Assembly (NCBI GenBank): GCA_900321275.1
Contig: ONVI01000021.1
Span: 1 to 62,211 of the forward strand
Source of the DNA: an uncultured Eubacteriales bacterium
GTDB taxonomy: Bacteria > Bacillota > Clostridia > Oscillospirales > Oscillospiraceae
Direction: 5' to 3'
Length of the DNA: 62,211 nucleotides
The notes under the pieces are model-generated. The model saw nothing but the letters and a program-made list of their open reading frames with translations, had not been told where the DNA came from and did no database searches. A program made the translations under genes and the position numbers. This document shows positions 21,791 through 56,756 of the stretch, one piece after another (position 1 is the first letter of the stretch; the number at the start of each line of letters is the position of its first letter).

Positions 21791-24700
21791 TTACGCGGCG
21801 TTGGCCAGCTCATCCGCGGCGAAGTCCGCGGCGCTCTGACCGGCGATGCGGCCGAAGATGGTGAAGTCGGCCACGGCGTTGCCGCCGAGACGGTTGTTGC
21901 CGTGCACGCCGCCAGTGGTCTCGCCGGCTGCAAAGAGACCGGGGATAACCGCGCCGTCGGTGCCGATGACCTCGGCGTTGTCGTTGATCTTAATGCCGCC
22001 CATGGTGTGGTGGACGCCGGGCTGCACCTTGATGGCGTAGAAGGGTGCCTGATCGAGGGGATTGGCGAAGGAGACGCGGCCGAATTCCTTGTCCTCCTTG
22101 GCCTCCACGCAGGCGTTCCAGGCCGCCATGGTCTCGGCCAGCACGTCGGCGGGAGCGCCGATGGCCCCGGCCAGCTCTTCCCAGGTTTCGCCCTTCTCGG
22201 CGAAGCCCTTGTTGATATAGCCCTGGATGACGTTGGAGGCGTCGCTCATGCGGCTGTCGACGATGAGCCAGGCATAGCCGCCGGTCTGCTCAAACTCGGC
22301 AGCAGAGACCTTGTCGCGGGTGGAGACCTCATCGAAGAAGCGCTTGCCCTCCTGGTTGACCAGGATGGCGCCGTCGCCGCGCAGACCCTCGGTGATGAGG
22401 TTTGCGCTGGTGCCTTCCACGTGGACGGTCGGGTGGAGCTGGATCTCAGCCATGTCGACGGTGTCCGCGCCGACGGCCTGGGCCATCTGGATGCCCTGGC
22501 CCTGGATGCCGGGGGCGTTGGTGGTGATGAAGCCGTCAAGCTCGGGACGGACGGCCTTGATCATGTCGTTGTTCGCGCCGAAGCCGCCGGAGGCGATGAC
22601 CACCGCCTTGGCGTTGATGGTGTAGTTTGCGTCCGGGCCCTCGGCCTTCACGCCGACGGCCGTGCCGTTATCCATCAGGATCTCGACGGCGGGAGTGTCG
22701 GTCATGAGCTTGATGCCGCGGTTTTCAAGGTTCTGCTGGAGCAGGGGGACGACGTACGCGCCGACGGAGATGACCTTGCCGTTTTCGTCCACCGGGCGGT
22801 GGATGCGCTTGACGGAGGCGCCGCCGAAGGCCGCGACGTTGTGAAGGATGATCTCGGGATTGAGGGAATCGAGCCAGGCAATGGCGTCGGGGCTGGACTC
22901 AACCAGCTTCTGCACCAGGGCGGGGTCGTTCTTGCCGCCGCCGCCGATCAGGGTGTCGAGCTGGAAGAGCTCAGAGGTATCGAAGTAGCCCTCGGGAGCG
23001 GCCTGGTAGGCCTCCCACTGCTCAGCGACGATCTTGCCGAGCTCCTGGATGCGCGCGTTGTCGGGGTAATTGGCGACCTTCTTGAGGGTGGCCTCCACGC
23101 CCGCGGCTTCCTTGAACTCATTCTGGTTGCGCCATTCGGTGGGGCCGGCGTTCATGCCGCCGGTGGAACGGACGGAGTTGCCGCCGGGGAAGGCGGTGCT
23201 CTCGAGAAGGATGACGTTCTTGCCCGCGTCGGTGGCGGTGATGGCGGCGGTCATGCCCGCGCCGCCCGCGCCGATGACGACCACGTCACAGTCAAGGGTC
23301 TCCTCCGCCTTCTCGGCGGGGGCCGCAGCCCCGGCGGGAGCGCCGGTGTAGGCGGCGGGATCAAAGCCCAGAGAGGTCAGGGCTTCGGTGACGGCGGTCT
23401 TGATGGCGGTGGAGGTGACGGTCGCGCCGGTGATGGCGTCGACGTCGACGGTGTTGCCCGCGACCATCGCGGCGGGCAGCTTTTCAGCGGCCACGGAGCC
23501 GATGCCCGGGGTCTCGTTCTGCTCGAGGATGTTGACTTCGTAGATGGTGGCGGCGTCGGCCTTGACCTCAACCACCACGTCGCCGCCGATGCCGGGGGCC
23601 TTGGCGGTGGCGGTCGCAACGTCGGCAGGCTCTTCCTTGGCCGCGGCGGTCTCGGAAGCGCCGCCCTTGGCAAACTCGGAGGCGCTCATGCCGGCGATGC
23701 GTCCGAAGACGATGAAATCGCAGACAGCATTGCCGCCCACGCGGTTGCCGCCGTGGATGCCGCCGGTGGTCTCGCCGCAGGCGAAGAGGCCGGGGATCAC
23801 ATTGCCGTCGGTATCAATGACTTCGGCCTTCTCGTCGATCTTGATGCCGCCCATGGTGTGGTGGATGCCCGGGGCAATCTTGATGGCGTAGAAGGGGGCG
23901 GTGGCCTGTGCCTCCATGCCGTTGTTGCGGCCCCATTCCTCGTCCACGCCCTTGGCGCAGGACTCGTTCCAGGCGACCATGGTGTTGACAAAGTTTTCCA
24001 CCGCGTCGCCCTCAAGGCCCATCTCCCTGGCCAGGGCCACATAGGTATCACCGGTCAGGGCGTAGCCGCCGTCGATGAACTTCTTGGTAAGGGCCAGGTG
24101 GTCGACCAGGTTCTGGTCGAAGATGATGAAGCAATAGCCGTCCGGCTGCTTGAGCTCGGCCTGGGAGACCACGTCACGGCCCGCCAGATCGTTGACGAAG
24201 CGCTTGCCCTCGGTGTTGACGATGACAGCGCCGTAGCTGCGCAGGGACTCGGACACCAGCAGTCCGTTGGACTGGATGACCGTCGGGTGGAGCTGGATCT
24301 GCTCCATATCGACCGTGTCCGCGCCGACAGCCTGGGCCATCATAATGCCGTCGCCCTGTGCGCCGGCGTGGTTGGTGGTGACGGCGTTGGCAAGGCTGGG
24401 ATCATAGCTTGCCATCAGGTCGAAGTTTGCGCCGAAGCCGCCGGTTGCGAGCACGACGGATTTGGCGTTGATGGTGTAGTTGTGATCCTCGTCCTCGGCC
24501 TTGACGCCGACGGCCCGGCCGTTATCCATCAGGATCTCGGTGGCCTTGGTGTTCACGCGCACGTCGATGCCCAGCTCCTCAGCCTTGGCGGAGAGCTTGG
24601 CGACGAGGTAGCTGCCGACGGCCTGACCGTCAGCGGGCTGGTGCAGGTACTGGTGCTGGGTGCCGCCGGTGGCCTTGACCTTTTCCAGCGGGGCGTCGAT

Positions 24701-25405
24701 GGAGAAGAGCCAGTCGACCGCTTCGGCGCTGTTCTCGGCCAGGGTGCGCACCAGGTCGGGATCGGCGAGGTCATGGCCGAGACGGAGGGTATCGTCGACA
24801 AAGTTGTCCACGGTGTTGCCCTCAAGGCCGAGCTCGGCCTGCACCTTGGTGTCGGCCGCGTTCATGCCGCCCTCGGCGCGGAGGCTGTTGCCGCCGACAA
24901 AGGGCATCTTCTCGAGCAGGATGACCTTCATCCCCTGCTGGGTCGCCATGACGGAAGCGGTCAGGCCCGCGCCGCCCGCGCCGACCACGACCACGTCGCA
25001 GTCCAGGGTGACCTCTTCCTTTTCCTTGGGGGCAGCCTCGCCGGAGGCGGCGCCCGCGTAGGCGGCGGGATCAAAGCCCATGGAGGTCAGCGCCTCGGTG
25101 ACGGCGGTCTTGATGGCGGTGCTGGTAACAGTCGCGCCGGAGATGCCGTCGACCTCGATGCTGTTGGCTTCCACAATCGCGCCGGGAAGCTTTTCCACGG
25201 CCACGGAGCCGATGCCCGGGGTCTCGTTCTGCTGGAGTACGGTAACCTCATAAATGGTGTTCGCGTCGGCCTTGACCTCGACGATCACCTCGCCGTCGAT
25301 GCCGGTGCCCTTGCCGGTGGCGGTCTGCGCGTCATCCGCGTAGGCCGGAACCACGAGGGTCAGGAGCATCATGACAGCCAGAATCAGGGATAATGCTTTC
25401 TTCAT
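21791..25405 (-). CDS. Exported tandem FMN/FAD fumarate-reductase-like flavoprotein (two complete modules)
   Basis: A 1204-residue protein with a signal peptide (cleavage near AYA-DD, residue 23). Module 1: FMN-binding domain (about 28-107) with the ApbE-type flavinylation site DGISGAT (Thr92), then an FAD-binding-2/fumarate reductase domain (about 135-575) with VVGAGGAGL, QLHPT (His373), GRDVVS (Arg410), IHHTMGG (His515) and HGGNRVGGNA (Arg555). Module 2 repeats this: DAITGAT (Thr662), VIGAGGAGM, QLHPT, TRDKVS, VHHTMGG and HGNNRLGGNA. By comparison with flavocytochrome c fumarate reductases all catalytic residues are kept in both. The substrate may be fumarate, urocanate or another enoate. 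GGAGG before ATG; own promoter. No ApbE gene in the window. Confidence 0.85.
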   Translation of the reverse strand: MKKALSLILAVMMLLTLVVPAYADDAQTATGKGTGIDGEVIVEVKADANTIYEVTVLQQNETPGIGSVAVEKLPGAIVEANSIEVDGISGATVTSTAIKTAVTEALTSMGFDPAAYAGAASGEAAPKEKEEVTLDCDVVVVGAGGAGLTASVMATQQGMKVILLEKMPFVGGNSLRAEGGMNAADTKVQAELGLEGNTVDNFVDDTLRLGHDLADPDLVRTLAENSAEAVDWLFSIDAPLEKVKATGGTQHQYLHQPADGQAVGSYLVAKLSAKAEELGIDVRVNTKATEILMDNGRAVGVKAEDEDHNYTINAKSVVLATGGFGANFDLMASYDPSLANAVTTNHAGAQGDGIMMAQAVGADTVDMEQIQLHPTVIQSNGLLVSESLRSYGAVIVNTEGKRFVNDLAGRDVVSQAELKQPDGYCFIIFDQNLVDHLALTKKFIDGGYALTGDTYVALAREMGLEGDAVENFVNTMVAWNESCAKGVDEEWGRNNGMEAQATAPFYAIKIAPGIHHTMGGIKIDEKAEVIDTDGNVIPGLFACGETTGGIHGGNRVGGNAVCDFIVFGRIAGMSASEFAKGGASETAAAKEEPADVATATAKAPGIGGDVVVEVKADAATIYEVNILEQNETPGIGSVAAEKLPAAMVAGNTVDVDAITGATVTSTAIKTAVTEALTSLGFDPAAYTGAPAGAAAPAEKAEETLDCDVVVIGAGGAGMTAAITATDAGKNVILLESTAFPGGNSVRSTGGMNAGPTEWRNQNEFKEAAGVEATLKKVANYPDNARIQELGKIVAEQWEAYQAAPEGYFDTSELFQLDTLIGGGGKNDPALVQKLVESSPDAIAWLDSLNPEIILHNVAAFGGASVKRIHRPVDENGKVISVGAYVVPLLQQNLENRGIKLMTDTPAVEILMDNGTAVGVKAEGPDANYTINAKAVVIASGGFGANNDMIKAVRPELDGFITTNAPGIQGQGIQMAQAVGADTVDMAEIQLHPTVHVEGTSANLITEGLRGDGAILVNQEGKRFFDEVSTRDKVSAAEFEQTGGYAWLIVDSRMSDASNVIQGYINKGFAEKGETWEELAGAIGAPADVLAETMAAWNACVEAKEDKEFGRVSFANPLDQAPFYAIKVQPGVHHTMGGIKINDNAEVIGTDGAVIPGLFAAGETTGGVHGNNRLGGNAVADFTIFGRIAGQSAADFAADELANAA

Positions 25406-25474
25406 ATGCGTCCTCCTTGTAATAGATGGGGCTTCCGTTTACCGGGGCGAATTGCCCTCAGGTATTCTGTGAAA

Positions 25475-25503
25475 AGTATATCATCTCCTCCTTTCAACGT
25501 CAA
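25475..25503 (-). promoter_or_regulatory. Promoter of the tandem reductase gene
   Basis: Minus strand: -35 TTGACG (25503-25498), 17-base spacer, -10 TATACT (25480-25475). The reductase can therefore be expressed apart from the FMN-string gene upstream. Confidence 0.7.
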
Positions 25504-25524
25504 TTGAGAATCCTGTCAATCTGT

Positions 25525-25575
25525 TCAAAAAATTCCCGAAAGAATTCCCGGCAGTCGTATGAACTGCCGGGAATT
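25525..25575 (-). terminator. Terminator of the FMN-string gene
   Basis: Perfect 13-base stem AATTCCCGGCAGT/ACTGCCGGGAATT with a seven-base loop; on the minus strand it is followed by TTTCGGGAATTTTTT. Confidence 0.75.
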
Positions 25576-25593
25576 GAAAGCTTATGTGTGTCT

Positions 25594-27912
25594 TTACGCC
25601 GCCTTGTCCATGGCCTCGCGCACGGCGGTCTTGATGGCGTCGGAGGTAATCGTCGCGCCGGTGATGCCGTCCACGTCGATGCTGTTTGCCTCGACGATGC
25701 GCGCGGGCAGCCATTCGACCGCGACGGAACCGACGCCCTGGGTCTCGCTGCTTTCGAGCACCTTGACATCGGTGACGTTCTTGCCGTCGGTGGTGACCTC
25801 AACGACGATGGGGCCGTTCCTGCCCGCGGCCTCGGCGGTCACGGTGACGGGCGCGGCGGGTGTGCCGTTCCGGGCTGCCTCGATGGCCTGGGCGACGGCA
25901 GCCTTGATGGCGTCGGAGGTAATCGTTGCGCCGGAAACGCCGTCCACGTCGATGCTGTTGGCGTCGACGATGCGCCCGGGCAGCCATTCGACCGCGACGG
26001 AGCCGACGCCCTGGGTCTCGCTGTTTTCAAGAACGTTCACGTCGGTGATGACACCGTCCTTCACGATGACGTCCACGACCATGGGGCCGTTCTTGCCTTC
26101 GACATTGGCCTGCACGTGGGCCGAGCCGACAGGGGCGCCGCCGGGAACGCCGTTCAGCGCGTTCTCAACGGCCTGGGCGACGGCGGCCTTGATCGCGTCG
26201 GAGGTAACGGTCGCGCCGGAGATTCCGTCCACGTCGACGGAGTTTGCCTCGACAATGCGCCCGGGCAGCCATTCGACGGCTACCGCGCCGACACCGACAG
26301 TCTCAACGCTCTCGAGCACCTTCACATCCAGAATGTTGCTGCCGTCGGTTGTGACCTCGACCACGATGGGGCCATTTTTGCCTTCGGCCACGGCCTGCAC
26401 GGTGACAGGCTCTGCCAGCGCGGTTTCCTTCGCGGGGGCGGCTTCTTCTGCGGGAGCTTCCTCAGCAGGAGCGGCTTCCTCGGCGGGAGCGGCGTTCAGG
26501 CTCGCCAGCGCCTCGGTGACGGCTGTCTTGATGGCGGTGCTGGTAACGGTCGCGCCGGTGATGGCGTCGACGTCGACGGAGTTTGCCGCGACGATCGCGC
26601 CGGGGAGCTTCTCGGCAGCCACAGAGCCGATGCCCGGTGTCTCGTTCTGTTCCACGACGGTGACGGCATAGATGTTCGTGCCGTCGGTAACGACCTCGAC
26701 CACGACGTCGCCGCCGATGCCCGCGCCCTTGCCCTGAACGGTGACGGCGTCCGCGGGGATCTCCGCGGGAGCCGATTCTTCAGCAGGAGCGGCTTCCTCG
26801 GCGGGGGCGGCCTCCAGGCTCGCCAGCGCCTCGGTGACGGCTGTCTTGATGGCGGTGCTGGTCACGGTCGCGCCGGTGATGGCATCGACATCGACGGAGT
26901 TGGCCGCGACGATCGCGCCGGGGAGCTTCTCGGCGGCCACGGAGCCGATGCCCGGGGTCTCGTTTTGCTCCACAACCGTGACGGCGTAGATGGTGCTGCC
27001 GTCGGTAACGACCTCGACCACGACGTCGCCGCCGATGCCCGTGCCCTTGCCTTGAACGGTGACGGCGTCGGCGGGGATCTCCGCGGGAGCCGATTCTTCA
27101 GCAGGAGCGGCTTCCTCGGCGGGGGCGGCCTCCGCAGCCGGTGCCGCGGTCTCGGCACCGCCGCCGAAGTTTGCGGGATCAAAGCCCGCAGAGGTCAGGG
27201 CCTCGGCGATGGCGGTCCTGATGGCGGTGGAGGTGACGGTCGCGCCGGTGATGGCGTCGAAGGCGATGGAGTTGGACTCGACAATCACGCTGGGGAGCTG
27301 TTCGGCTGCGACGGAGCCGATGCCCGGCGTCTCGTTCTGCTCAAGAATATTGACCTCATAGATGGTGTTCTCATCAGCCACGATCTCGACGATCACGTCG
27401 CCACCGATGCCCGTACCCTTGCCCTGAACGGTGACCTTGCCGTCTTCCGCGGCGACGGGTCCGGCCAGCTCGACCTCAGGCTCCGGGTCGGGAGCGACAT
27501 AGCCGAAGTTTGCGGGATCGAAGCCCGCTTCGGTGAGGGCGTTGGCAATGGCGGCCTTGATGGCGTCGCTGGTCACGGTGGCAGTGGCGATGCCGTCTAC
27601 ATCGAGGGAATTAGCCGTGCCGATGGCGGCGGGCAGCTGCTCCACCGCGAGGGTGCCAATGCCCGGGGTCTCGTTATGCTCAACGATGGTCACGGAGTAG
27701 ATATTGTCCGCGTCAGCGATGATCTCGACCTTCACGTCCCCAACCTTGCCGGGTGCGGTACCGGTGACGGTAACCGCATCGCTGGAGGCCTTGCGCATGC
27801 CCTTGGCCGGCAGCTTGCCGATCACGGCGATGTTGATCACCAGGACGGCAATCAGCGCCAGAACGAGGATCAGGTCGAACGTGCTGAACTTTTTCTCAAG
27901 GTTGTGTTTCAT
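25594..27912 (-). CDS. Membrane-anchored protein with seven tandem FMN-binding domains
   Basis: A 772-residue protein: short basic start, one transmembrane helix (about 12-32) and then seven FMN-binding (PF04205-type) domains outside the cell. Flavinylation threonines: Thr225, Thr349, Thr455 (DAITGAT), Thr568 (DGISGAT), Thr663 (DGVSGAT) and Thr754 (DGITGAT). The first domain has DGIATAT at 106-112, with the conserved Gly replaced by Thr110, and may be empty. Domains 1-4 carry NETPGIG; domains 5-7 carry ETxGVG.VAVEWLP, so two lineages were joined. Ala/Pro/Glu linkers separate domains 2-5. ApbE would attach FMN. It probably passes electrons along a chain of FMN to the reductase downstream. GGAGG before ATG. 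Confidence 0.85.
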   Translation of the reverse strand: MKHNLEKKFSTFDLILVLALIAVLVINIAVIGKLPAKGMRKASSDAVTVTGTAPGKVGDVKVEIIADADNIYSVTIVEHNETPGIGTLAVEQLPAAIGTANSLDVDGIATATVTSDAIKAAIANALTEAGFDPANFGYVAPDPEPEVELAGPVAAEDGKVTVQGKGTGIGGDVIVEIVADENTIYEVNILEQNETPGIGSVAAEQLPSVIVESNSIAFDAITGATVTSTAIRTAIAEALTSAGFDPANFGGGAETAAPAAEAAPAEEAAPAEESAPAEIPADAVTVQGKGTGIGGDVVVEVVTDGSTIYAVTVVEQNETPGIGSVAAEKLPGAIVAANSVDVDAITGATVTSTAIKTAVTEALASLEAAPAEEAAPAEESAPAEIPADAVTVQGKGAGIGGDVVVEVVTDGTNIYAVTVVEQNETPGIGSVAAEKLPGAIVAANSVDVDAITGATVTSTAIKTAVTEALASLNAAPAEEAAPAEEAPAEEAAPAKETALAEPVTVQAVAEGKNGPIVVEVTTDGSNILDVKVLESVETVGVGAVAVEWLPGRIVEANSVDVDGISGATVTSDAIKAAVAQAVENALNGVPGGAPVGSAHVQANVEGKNGPMVVDVIVKDGVITDVNVLENSETQGVGSVAVEWLPGRIVDANSIDVDGVSGATITSDAIKAAVAQAIEAARNGTPAAPVTVTAEAAGRNGPIVVEVTTDGKNVTDVKVLESSETQGVGSVAVEWLPARIVEANSIDVDGITGATITSDAIKTAVREAMDKAA
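26494..27129 (-). repeat. Two tandem 318-bp repeats encoding FMN domains 3 and 4
   Basis: Residues 262-367 (26812-27129) and 368-473 (26494-26811) are almost identical, including the APAEEAAPAEESAP linker, and differ by only a few residues (GTGIG/GAGIG, GSTIY/GTNIY). This is a recent in-frame duplication of linker plus domain. Confidence 0.75.
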
Positions 27913-27952
27913 GGCGTTTCCTCCAGAATGATAGTGGGGAAAGAAAAAGCTT

Positions 27953-28102
27953 TACTATAAAAGCTGACGCCTTTATAGTAATTTTGAGTGTGCGAAATCC
28001 TCGCCGCTCACGCGGCAGCCGGATTTCATGCACATGTAAATCCCCATGAATCAACTTTTATTCATCGCGGCAAGGCTTGCCGCATGGGGAATGGGGATTT
28101 AC
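27953..28102. promoter_or_regulatory. Hairpins upstream of the FMN-string gene
   Basis: In the 272-base gap there is TACTATAAA/TTTATAGTA (27953-27961, 27972-27980), and a 67-base structure with outer arms GTAAATCCCCAT/ATGGGGATTTAC (28036-28047, 28091-28102) and inner arms GCGGCAAG/CTTGCCGC. They may terminate the PepSY gene or regulate the FMN-string gene; the role is not clear. Confidence 0.4.
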
Positions 28103-28184
28103 TATAAAATTTTACAGTATCCCCGCGCGTTTTGCAAGAGGAAATGTGCAGATTTATCAAAAAAGAAGGTGAAGCTGCCTTTGA

Positions 28185-28475
28185 TCAGTGATCGCGGCCG
28201 CCGTACATGATCTCGCCGGTCTTGGCGTCGACGGCGTATTCGTATTCCTGAAGGCCCTGGTCGAAGGTGATTTCGTACCAGGTTCTGCCGCGCTCCCGCT
28301 CCAGGTCGATTTCCACGTCGTGGACGTCATTGCGGGCGAGGCCCGCGTCGTTCAGCGCGATCTCCAAAGCCCGGTCGCTCCCGATGCGTCCGGCGGCATT
28401 GCGCCAGAGGAAAAATCCGACAAGCAGCGCCGCGGCAAGAATCACGATTAAACCGATGATGAGTGCCTTTTTCAT
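28185..28475 (-). CDS. Small PepSY-domain membrane protein
   Basis: A 96-residue protein with an N-terminal transmembrane segment (about 5-24) and one PepSY domain outside (SDRALEIALNDAGL, then VEIDLERERGRTWYEITF, then YEYAVDAKTGEIM). PepSY domains occur as inhibitors of secreted proteases and as partners of flavin- or iron-dependent membrane redox systems. It lies upstream of the FMN-string and reductase genes on the same strand, so a link with that electron path is possible. GAAAGGA before ATG. Confidence 0.7.
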   Translation of the reverse strand: MKKALIIGLIVILAAALLVGFFLWRNAAGRIGSDRALEIALNDAGLARNDVHDVEIDLERERGRTWYEITFDQGLQEYEYAVDAKTGEIMYGGRDH

Positions 28476-56590: not shown

Positions 56591-56756
56591 CGCTCCGGTG
56601 CGCGCGATATACGCGTGTATCGGAGAGGTTTCAGCCGCCCGATTTCGTACCGGAAACAACCGGTACCGGACATACTCCACGGAAGTTACCTCGTTTTGAC
56701 GAGCAATCTCCCGCTTCATCGCATAATACGCTGTGCCTTCGCACGCGCGCTCTAAT

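Follow-up and report, generated by a model that had tools for sequence, protein, structure and literature searches.

The window analysed here is a stretch of 62,211 nucleotides (contig ONVI01000021.1) from an uncultured, gut-type Eubacteriales bacterium whose genome is available as a 2.74-Mb draft in 101 contigs that is 93.4% complete. Three consecutive minus-strand genes between positions 21791 and 28475 encode a small PepSY protein (P0003), a membrane-anchored string of flavin mononucleotide (FMN)-binding domains (P0002) and a probably exported reductase with two flavin adenine dinucleotide (FAD) heads (P0001), and an earlier note on this DNA, made from the letters alone, had proposed that the three form an extracytoplasmic flavin conduit. 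We consider it probable that the string and the reductase make up a quinone-independent extracytoplasmic flavin wire with a terminal enzyme, which would be fed by the Rnf complex and would transfer electrons to fumarate or to an alpha,beta-unsaturated acid related to it. Within this proposal, we infer covalent FMN, the identity of the donor, direct contact between the two proteins, the direction of electron flow and the substrates. The locus itself is real, well delimited and functionally plausible, and it is not unprecedented.

Domain architecture of the string and the reductase

Pfam FMN_bind matched seven stretches of P0002 (772 aa; E=5.1e-104) and two of P0001 (1204 aa; E=9.8e-30), and FAD_binding_2 covered both halves of P0001 (E=3.8e-165), giving the domain order FMN-FAD-FMN-FAD in the reductase. 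Given the E-values, the domain matches in P0001-P0003 are not due to chance, and both P0002 and P0001 have more than one FMN-binding domain per protein, the multi-domain criterion of multi-flavinylated proteins. Pattern and alignment checks identified the flavinylation motif D..[ST]GA[TS] six times in the string and twice in the reductase; eight of the nine FMN domains are therefore canonical, the exception being bead 1 of the string with the degenerate motif DGIATAT. The earlier reading of the letters was accurate in these respects: the three open reading frames lie where it had placed them, Pfam matched the seven FMN domains of the string and the two FMN and two FAD domains of the reductase, and the count of eight good motifs plus one degenerate motif was reproduced exactly. 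The features of the two proteins are as follows.

25594..27912, minus strand: string P0002, with an anchor, seven FMN_bind beads and Ala/Pro/Glu-rich linkers (Pfam, alignment, AlphaFold)
27817..27882, minus strand: single N-terminal membrane helix, residues 11-32 (sequence and string model)
27514..27732, minus strand: bead 1, residues 61-133, non-canonical DGIATAT (alignment)
27175..27393, minus strand: bead 2, DAITGAT (motif alignment)
26803..27021, minus strand: bead 3, DAITGAT (motif alignment)
26485..26703, minus strand: bead 4, DAITGAT (motif alignment)
26146..26364, minus strand: bead 5, DGISGAT (motif alignment)
25861..26079, minus strand: bead 6, DGVSGAT (motif alignment)
25597..25806, minus strand: bead 7, DGITGAT (motif alignment)
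21791..25405, minus strand: double-headed reductase P0001, 1204 aa, Sec-type signal peptide (Pfam, sequence by eye)
25067..25285, minus strand: reductase FMN domain 1, DGISGAT (Pfam, motif)
23642..25003, minus strand: reductase FAD head type A, fumarate reductase-like (Pfam, structure-relative alignment)
23357..23575, minus strand: reductase FMN domain 2, DAITGAT (Pfam, motif)
21794..23293, minus strand: reductase FAD head type B, fumarate reductase-like and carrying an insertion that flavocytochrome c lacks (Pfam, alignment)

The location signals, read by eye, are a membrane anchor on the string and an N-terminal signal sequence on the reductase, and the string model has a helix at residues 11-32; neither a lipobox nor an LPXTG motif was found when P0001 was read in the same way. 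AlphaFold modelling of the string bore out the beads as seven separate folds but did not fix their arrangement (mean predicted local distance difference test score (pLDDT) 64, predicted template modelling score (pTM) 0.26). Protein identity between beads 3 and 4 is 96% and DNA identity 92%, and this likeness suggests a recent duplication.

Predicted partnership of string and reductase in related genomes

We searched 84,980 species genomes with two N-terminal patterns (MKHNLEK and KFSTFDL[IA]), a search that reaches close relatives only, and obtained seven further loci with the same string in metagenome-assembled genomes labelled Ruminococcaceae or Oscillospiraceae, one of them from goat reticulum. 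The RUG isolate names among these genomes indicate rumen origin. L053 is the same contig as L071, with identical length and gene coordinates, and was counted once among the eight strings; the string of L073 is cut in bead 3, where its contig ends. Among 59 other genomes, the same string was present in one, G027 (76% identity over residues 1-386), which is the genome of L071. The split form, with string and reductase as separate proteins, looks confined to a few species, and many of these drafts are incomplete.

In all seven relative loci tadA lies upstream of the string. A reductase gene follows the string in seven of the eight string loci, the window included, the contig of L073 ending inside the string; in all seven loci where the contig continues, the reductase gene lies at most 3.5 kb downstream. 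The reductase of L071 is cut by the contig end at 189 aa. In L074 two other genes, which by eye are a Ser/Thr protein kinase-like gene and a Sel1-like-repeat gene (L074:13544-16758), separate string and reductase.

The same parts recur in other combinations. The six complete, unfused strings contain between 5 and 7 beads. L074 has a type A head inserted in its string, after bead 3 and before bead 4, and its B head is a separate gene. Other genomes of the genus carry the parts in one protein: L054 (G015, 1795 aa) is a single anchored chain with seven FMN domains and heads A-B, L055 (G033, 1305 aa) is a single anchored chain with FMN beads and heads A-A, and L056 (G035, 893 aa) is anchored and has three beads and one B-like head (67%); L057 (G007), with three beads and a head, resembles L056 and is cut by the contig end. 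Because the same parts are fused, split or head-inserted across relatives, the comparison supports that string and reductase act as partners, and the coexistence of fused and split forms is the strongest evidence for this predicted partnership.

The heads were compared in 11 proteins, in which 16 heads were found (the pattern found no head in L058, and L057 was left out). Identity between heads A and B of one protein is 52-53% in both the window and L069; the A heads of other string genomes share 88-97% identity with that of the window, and their B heads 86-91% with its B head. The combinations are A-B in the window and L069, B-B in L070 and L072, and B alone at L075. All 16 heads keep the equivalents of H365, E378, R381, R402, H504 and R544 of flavocytochrome c3; these residues are catalytic in that enzyme, and their positions in the heads were read from structure alignments. 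At position 236, type A has T and type B has F (M236T and M236F), and at position 377 type A has S (T377S). Because these pocket residues differ, the substrates of A and B may differ as well. Among solved structures, both heads match flavocytochrome c fumarate reductases best and urocanate reductase less well (362 versus 299 bits for head A and 351 versus 240 bits for head B), and TIGR01813 scored 894.5 bits on P0001, summed over both halves, at a cut-off of 285.45. A search of the literature for substrate rules for such heads returned nothing on point. The genome of the window encodes three more reductases with one FMN_bind domain each (contigs C14, C49 and C90; L061, L063 and L062), with RRxFLK-type, Tat-like N-termini by eye; a vinyl phenol reductase model is the best match for two of the three, below its cut-off.

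Flavinylation, electron donor and competing explanations

We propose the following working of the system. ApbE, the gene for which is probably in an assembly gap, would put FMN on beads 2-7 and on both FMN domains of the reductase. Rnf would draw electrons from ferredoxin or reduced nicotinamide adenine dinucleotide (NADH) and carry them across the membrane, where the anchored bead 1 would dock at the donor and beads 2-7 would form a flexible string relaying electrons outward. The exported reductase would be held by and fed from the string via its two FMN domains, and FAD heads A and B would use these electrons to reduce fumarate or another alpha,beta-unsaturated acid related to it. The idea in the earlier note that an extracytoplasmic string feeds a double-headed reductase is supported by the fusions, the head insertion, the catalytic residues, the complete rnf operon of the same genome and the presence of apbE in six of the seven other string genomes.

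As for the donor, the genome has a complete rnf operon on contig C40, with rnfC, D, G, E, A and B in one run; the RnfG motif is DALTGAT. RnfD was found in 35 of 37 genomes searched and in 22 of 23 other same-genus genomes (the genome-search totals of 37 and, below, 60 count the genome of the window). In G024 (L092:2719-11282), rnfC, a D+G fusion, E, A and B are followed in one run by nrfA, resB and a cytochrome c assembly gene, and in G020 (L091:1060-6041) a D+G fusion, E and A are followed by nrfA; by their gene order, these two runs connect Rnf with an extracytoplasmic reductase in this genus. The search for UbiA gave no match in the genome of the window, with 14 of 14 controls positive, and matches in 4 of 37 genomes searched and in only 2 of 23 other same-genus genomes, which argues against a quinone pool in most. 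Rnf appears the likelier donor, given the complete rnf operon, the rnf-nrfA clusters of two relatives and the lack of a UbiA match in the genome itself.

Several points weigh against the Rnf-fed wire. The draft contains no match to PF02424 (apbE), and no apbE match was found in G063/L072. The rnf operon does not adjoin the string, and the donor link consists of genome content and the analogy with the rnf-nrfA runs, with the NapH-like iron-sulfur (Fe-S)/redoxin protein as a competing donor. String and reductase genes have separate promoter-like sites (see below). The AlphaFold model of the reductase was poor (pLDDT 37.7, from a 3-sequence alignment) and gave no usable FMN-FAD geometry. Finally, bead 1 may lack covalent FMN, which would leave a gap beside the membrane.

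Some of these points bear on explanations that differ from ours. If apbE were truly absent, the system would be unflavinylated in this species, as the missing PF02424 match would imply. We regard this as very improbable: the draft is 93.4% complete, eight flavinylation motifs are intact and the RnfG of the same genome retains its motif. In addition, apbE adjoins recG in five of the seven other string genomes, and RecG was likewise not found in the draft, the best match having 37% identity over part of a 1173-aa frame. Because this usual neighbour was also not found, an assembly gap over apbE-recG seems likelier than a real absence, which we rejected as the likeliest reading; apbE is present in 33 of 36 other same-genus genomes, and the three without it are 65-71% complete. 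Absence of apbE, named in the earlier note as a refuting outcome, is what the draft shows if taken literally, yet a gap explains it better. A different explanation keeps the wire and replaces its source: a redoxin-containing NapH-like Fe-S membrane protein (the pair on contig C45, L090:521-3242) would feed it instead of Rnf. In G015, orthologues of this pair (L054:15711-18057; 84% and 71% identity) lie downstream of the gene for the all-in-one anchored flavin reductase, at a distance of ~2.4 kb, and PMC8238504 names NapH-like proteins as flavinylation-associated donors. However, the pair in the genome of the window is on a separate contig that has no FMN_bind match, it was not found in the L070, L072, L074 or L075 loci, and a redoxin domain also fits thiol chemistry or cytochrome maturation; moreover, RnfD is nearly general in the sampled genus (22 of 23), a count made for RnfD and not for the NapH-like gene. 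We therefore judge NapH-like feeding to be unlikely. Both L054:14293-18057 and L090:521-4416 encode a NapH-like Fer4_5 protein with a C-terminal redoxin domain and a 257-aa membrane protein; the copy of the latter in the genome of the window had no Pfam match.

The string might also buffer the redox state of the wall or hold a flavin reserve there rather than act as a directional wire, with other donors loading the reductase. The linkers between beads are flexible (the string model has a pTM of 0.26), the bead number is variable, and for a purified three-bead protein the authors of PMC10339131, in the available part of that paper, report one single redox potential and saw no directionality. 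A mere reservoir is harder to reconcile with heads inserted into, or fused with, beads in relatives, with the grouping of beads 2-4 with the FMN domains of the reductase itself (see below) and with a reductase gene close downstream of the string in all seven loci with a continuing contig, and we find it quite improbable. The earlier note had also counted the PepSY protein as a part of the conduit. Its gene adjoins the string on the same strand, and the protein has one N-terminal hydrophobic segment (by eye), as a membrane partner of the string might. However, it belongs to PF03413, whereas the PepSY-like flavinylation systems described in PMC8238504 involve PF03929 or PF16357 and a three-helix membrane protein, and it was found in three of the eight string loci, namely the window and its two closest relatives (L069 and L073; 98% identical), and not in the other five. 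Because of this distribution and because the string gene has its own conserved promoter-like site, P0003 is best read as a neighbour and not as a part of the system; we rejected it as a component, and a role as membrane partner is extremely improbable.

Bead 1, the shared anchor and the surroundings of the locus

The anchor of the string recurs in a second type of protein. On contig C18 of the same genome (L059:199-1908), an anchor and an FMN_bind domain are joined to a Cytochrom_C552 domain (E=5e-74) with five CXXC[HK] heme motifs, and the N-terminal part of this FMN-NrfA fusion is 47% identical to string residues 5-143. Chains that combine a single FMN domain with five heme motifs occur in 14 genomes of the genus (L059, L030/L064, L033, L034, L036-L042, L045, L094 and L095); Pfam was run on three of the fusions, and PF02335 matches lie at the same places in all 14. 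Cytochrom_C552 was found in 25 of 60 genomes, comprising that of the window, 24 of 36 other same-genus genomes and none of 23 from other families, and the Cytochrom_C552 proteins of G020, G024 and G033 are without an FMN motif. We suggest that the FMN-NrfA fusion could reduce nitrite with electrons from Rnf. It is possibly an undescribed fusion: 'NrfA' is absent from the main text of PMC8238504, and no paper combining NrfA with flavinylation was among the matches listed in a literature search. The description of the route as one without hemes in the earlier note thus holds for string and reductase but not for the organism.

Bead 1 is the divergent member of the string. Its motif glycine is replaced by T or S in all eight strings (IATAT in three, VSTAT in two and VSSAT in three) with the final threonine kept, and the 37 other complete string beads are all canonical; the eight strings are mutually related, and these glycine losses do not represent eight independent events. 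Because the ratio of nonsynonymous to synonymous substitution rates (dN/dS) of bead 1 is below 1 in 28 of 28 pairs (0.00 to 0.63), the bead is, on this comparison, not decaying; values for the last bead are similar (0.10 to 0.64; 21 pairs, L073 left out). According to a review (PMC12052999, available in part), a glycine-to-alanine exchange in the motif of the Klebsiella fumarate reductase lowers flavinylation to about half. Because a change of the same glycine has this effect there, bead 1 may be partly flavinylated, unflavinylated or hold FMN loosely.

A bead tree, which is unrooted, is built on short domains and contains seven of the eight strings (L073 out) and seven of the 14 NrfA fusions, the RnfG domain being too short a hit for inclusion, united bead 1 with the bead next to the anchor in the seven NrfA fusions (support 0.79). 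This group also takes in bead 1 of L054, L055 and L056, and bead 1 of L057 lies outside it. Beads 2-4 of the window group with the FMN domains of the reductase (support 0.95), and beads 5-7 form a third group (support 0.65).

Tentatively, these observations could reflect a quinone-free, Rnf-driven plug-and-play respiration in the genus, in which one conserved anchored FMN plug is fused to exchangeable outlets. These outlets would be a nitrite reductase with five hemes, one or two fumarate-type heads, or a flavin string that can be lengthened and works with a double-headed enzyme encoded separately. In the split strings, the plug bead would have become a docking or gating bead that is flavinylated weakly or not at all and is kept under selection. 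Three findings speak against this interpretation of bead 1: bead 2 has dN/dS values of 0.04 to 0.28, making bead 1 the less constrained of the two; the bead-1 tree group also holds later beads of L054 and L056; and bead 3 of L056:205-2886 (G035) is DGISSAT, a glycine-less motif outside the split strings. Some beads of L054, L056 and L057 carry C, G or A for the S/T preceding the motif glycine.

The earlier note knew of no described system with this exact architecture; the general architecture is already in print. Meheust 2021 (eLife, PMC8238504) reports multi-flavinylated proteins outside the cytosol that carry up to 13 sites, some of them in clusters whose products have several fumarate reductase-like domains, and proposes longer-distance electron transfer and a multi-functional reductase platform. 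The exact cluster may be among the examples in its figures or supplement; neither head types nor a series of swaps and fusions appear in its available text, which also has no degenerate first bead and no anchor in common with NrfA. Beads-on-a-string models are shown in PMC11334425, which in its available part calls their function unclear, and three- and four-bead proteins were purified by Tong et al. 2023 (PMC10339131), the single potential of the three-bead protein being -184 mV. These proteins, SaFMN3 and CbFMN4, likewise have an N-terminal membrane segment, repeated FMN_bind domains and flexible linkers, and by sequence the solved structure closest to the string is that of a CbFMN4 domain (PDB 8p2b; E=3e-13). 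However, as described there, their three or four beads are >80% alike and flavin transferase genes flank them, whereas here there are seven beads in three groups and a partner reductase. Fcc3, Listeria FrdA and Shewanella UrdA share the FAD head fold family and catalytic residues, and an FMN domain is the electron entry in FrdA and UrdA according to PMC8238504; unlike these enzymes, P0001 has two unlike heads in one probably exported chain, each with an FMN domain, plus a separate string. RnfG likewise has an FMN_bind domain with a flavinylation motif, and the TIGR01947 rnfG model scored 125 bits on the whole string (cut-off 102). Because this score sums over the repeats, with no single stretch passing, we rejected an identity with RnfG. 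The genome has its own RnfG on contig C40; unlike RnfG and NqrC, the string has seven beads, a different anchor and, as neighbours, tadA/PepSY and the reductase rather than an rnf or nqr operon. A search of the rumen and flavinylation literature gave no paper on this system among the matches listed. The general kind has thus been known since 2021, while head swapping, the divergence of bead 1, the NrfA-shared plug and the rnf-nrfA runs were not found in the literature searched, parts of which were available as excerpts.

These loci form a natural series of split and fused proteins with one head, two like heads or two unlike heads and 5-7 beads, which makes partnership, bead number and head type testable by comparison. 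The runs in G024 and G020, which link Rnf directly to extracytoplasmic reduction, hint at how quinone-free clostridia could respire, with possible effects on the use of hydrogen, fumarate and nitrite in the rumen.

Around the two main genes, the neighbouring gene and the promoter-like sites are as follows.

28185..28475, minus strand: neighbour P0003, 96 aa, small PepSY membrane protein (PF03413; Pfam, E=1.5e-8)
28109..28150, minus strand: promoter-like site of the string gene and conserved upstream element TGCACATTTCCTCTTGCA (8/8 aligned sequences)
25475..25503, minus strand: extended -10 promoter-like site before the reductase gene, TTGACG-17-TATACT (site scan)

A scan of both strands between 21500 and 28600 found four sigma-70-like sites, versus 0.8 +/- 0.8 expected from shuffles; one precedes the string gene and another the reductase gene. 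The site of the string gene is kept, and TGCACATTTCCTCTTGCA is invariant, in all eight aligned sequences (the window and seven relatives). Because string and reductase each have their own promoter-like site, we rejected a single operon for all three genes: they are consecutive, as the earlier note had seen, but a joint operon need not follow. Between the promoter-like site and the start codon of the string gene, the window has ~145 bases (27943-28087) that are absent from the seven aligned relatives. This extra stretch contains a 13-pair hairpin ahead of a T-rich stretch and, read by eye, the inverted repeat TAAATCCCCAT...ATGGGGATTTA; it looks like a small inserted element or an attenuator. 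Elsewhere in the window, positions 56642-56727 on the minus strand match the S10-Clostridia ribosomal protein leader (RF03136, 41.8 bits).

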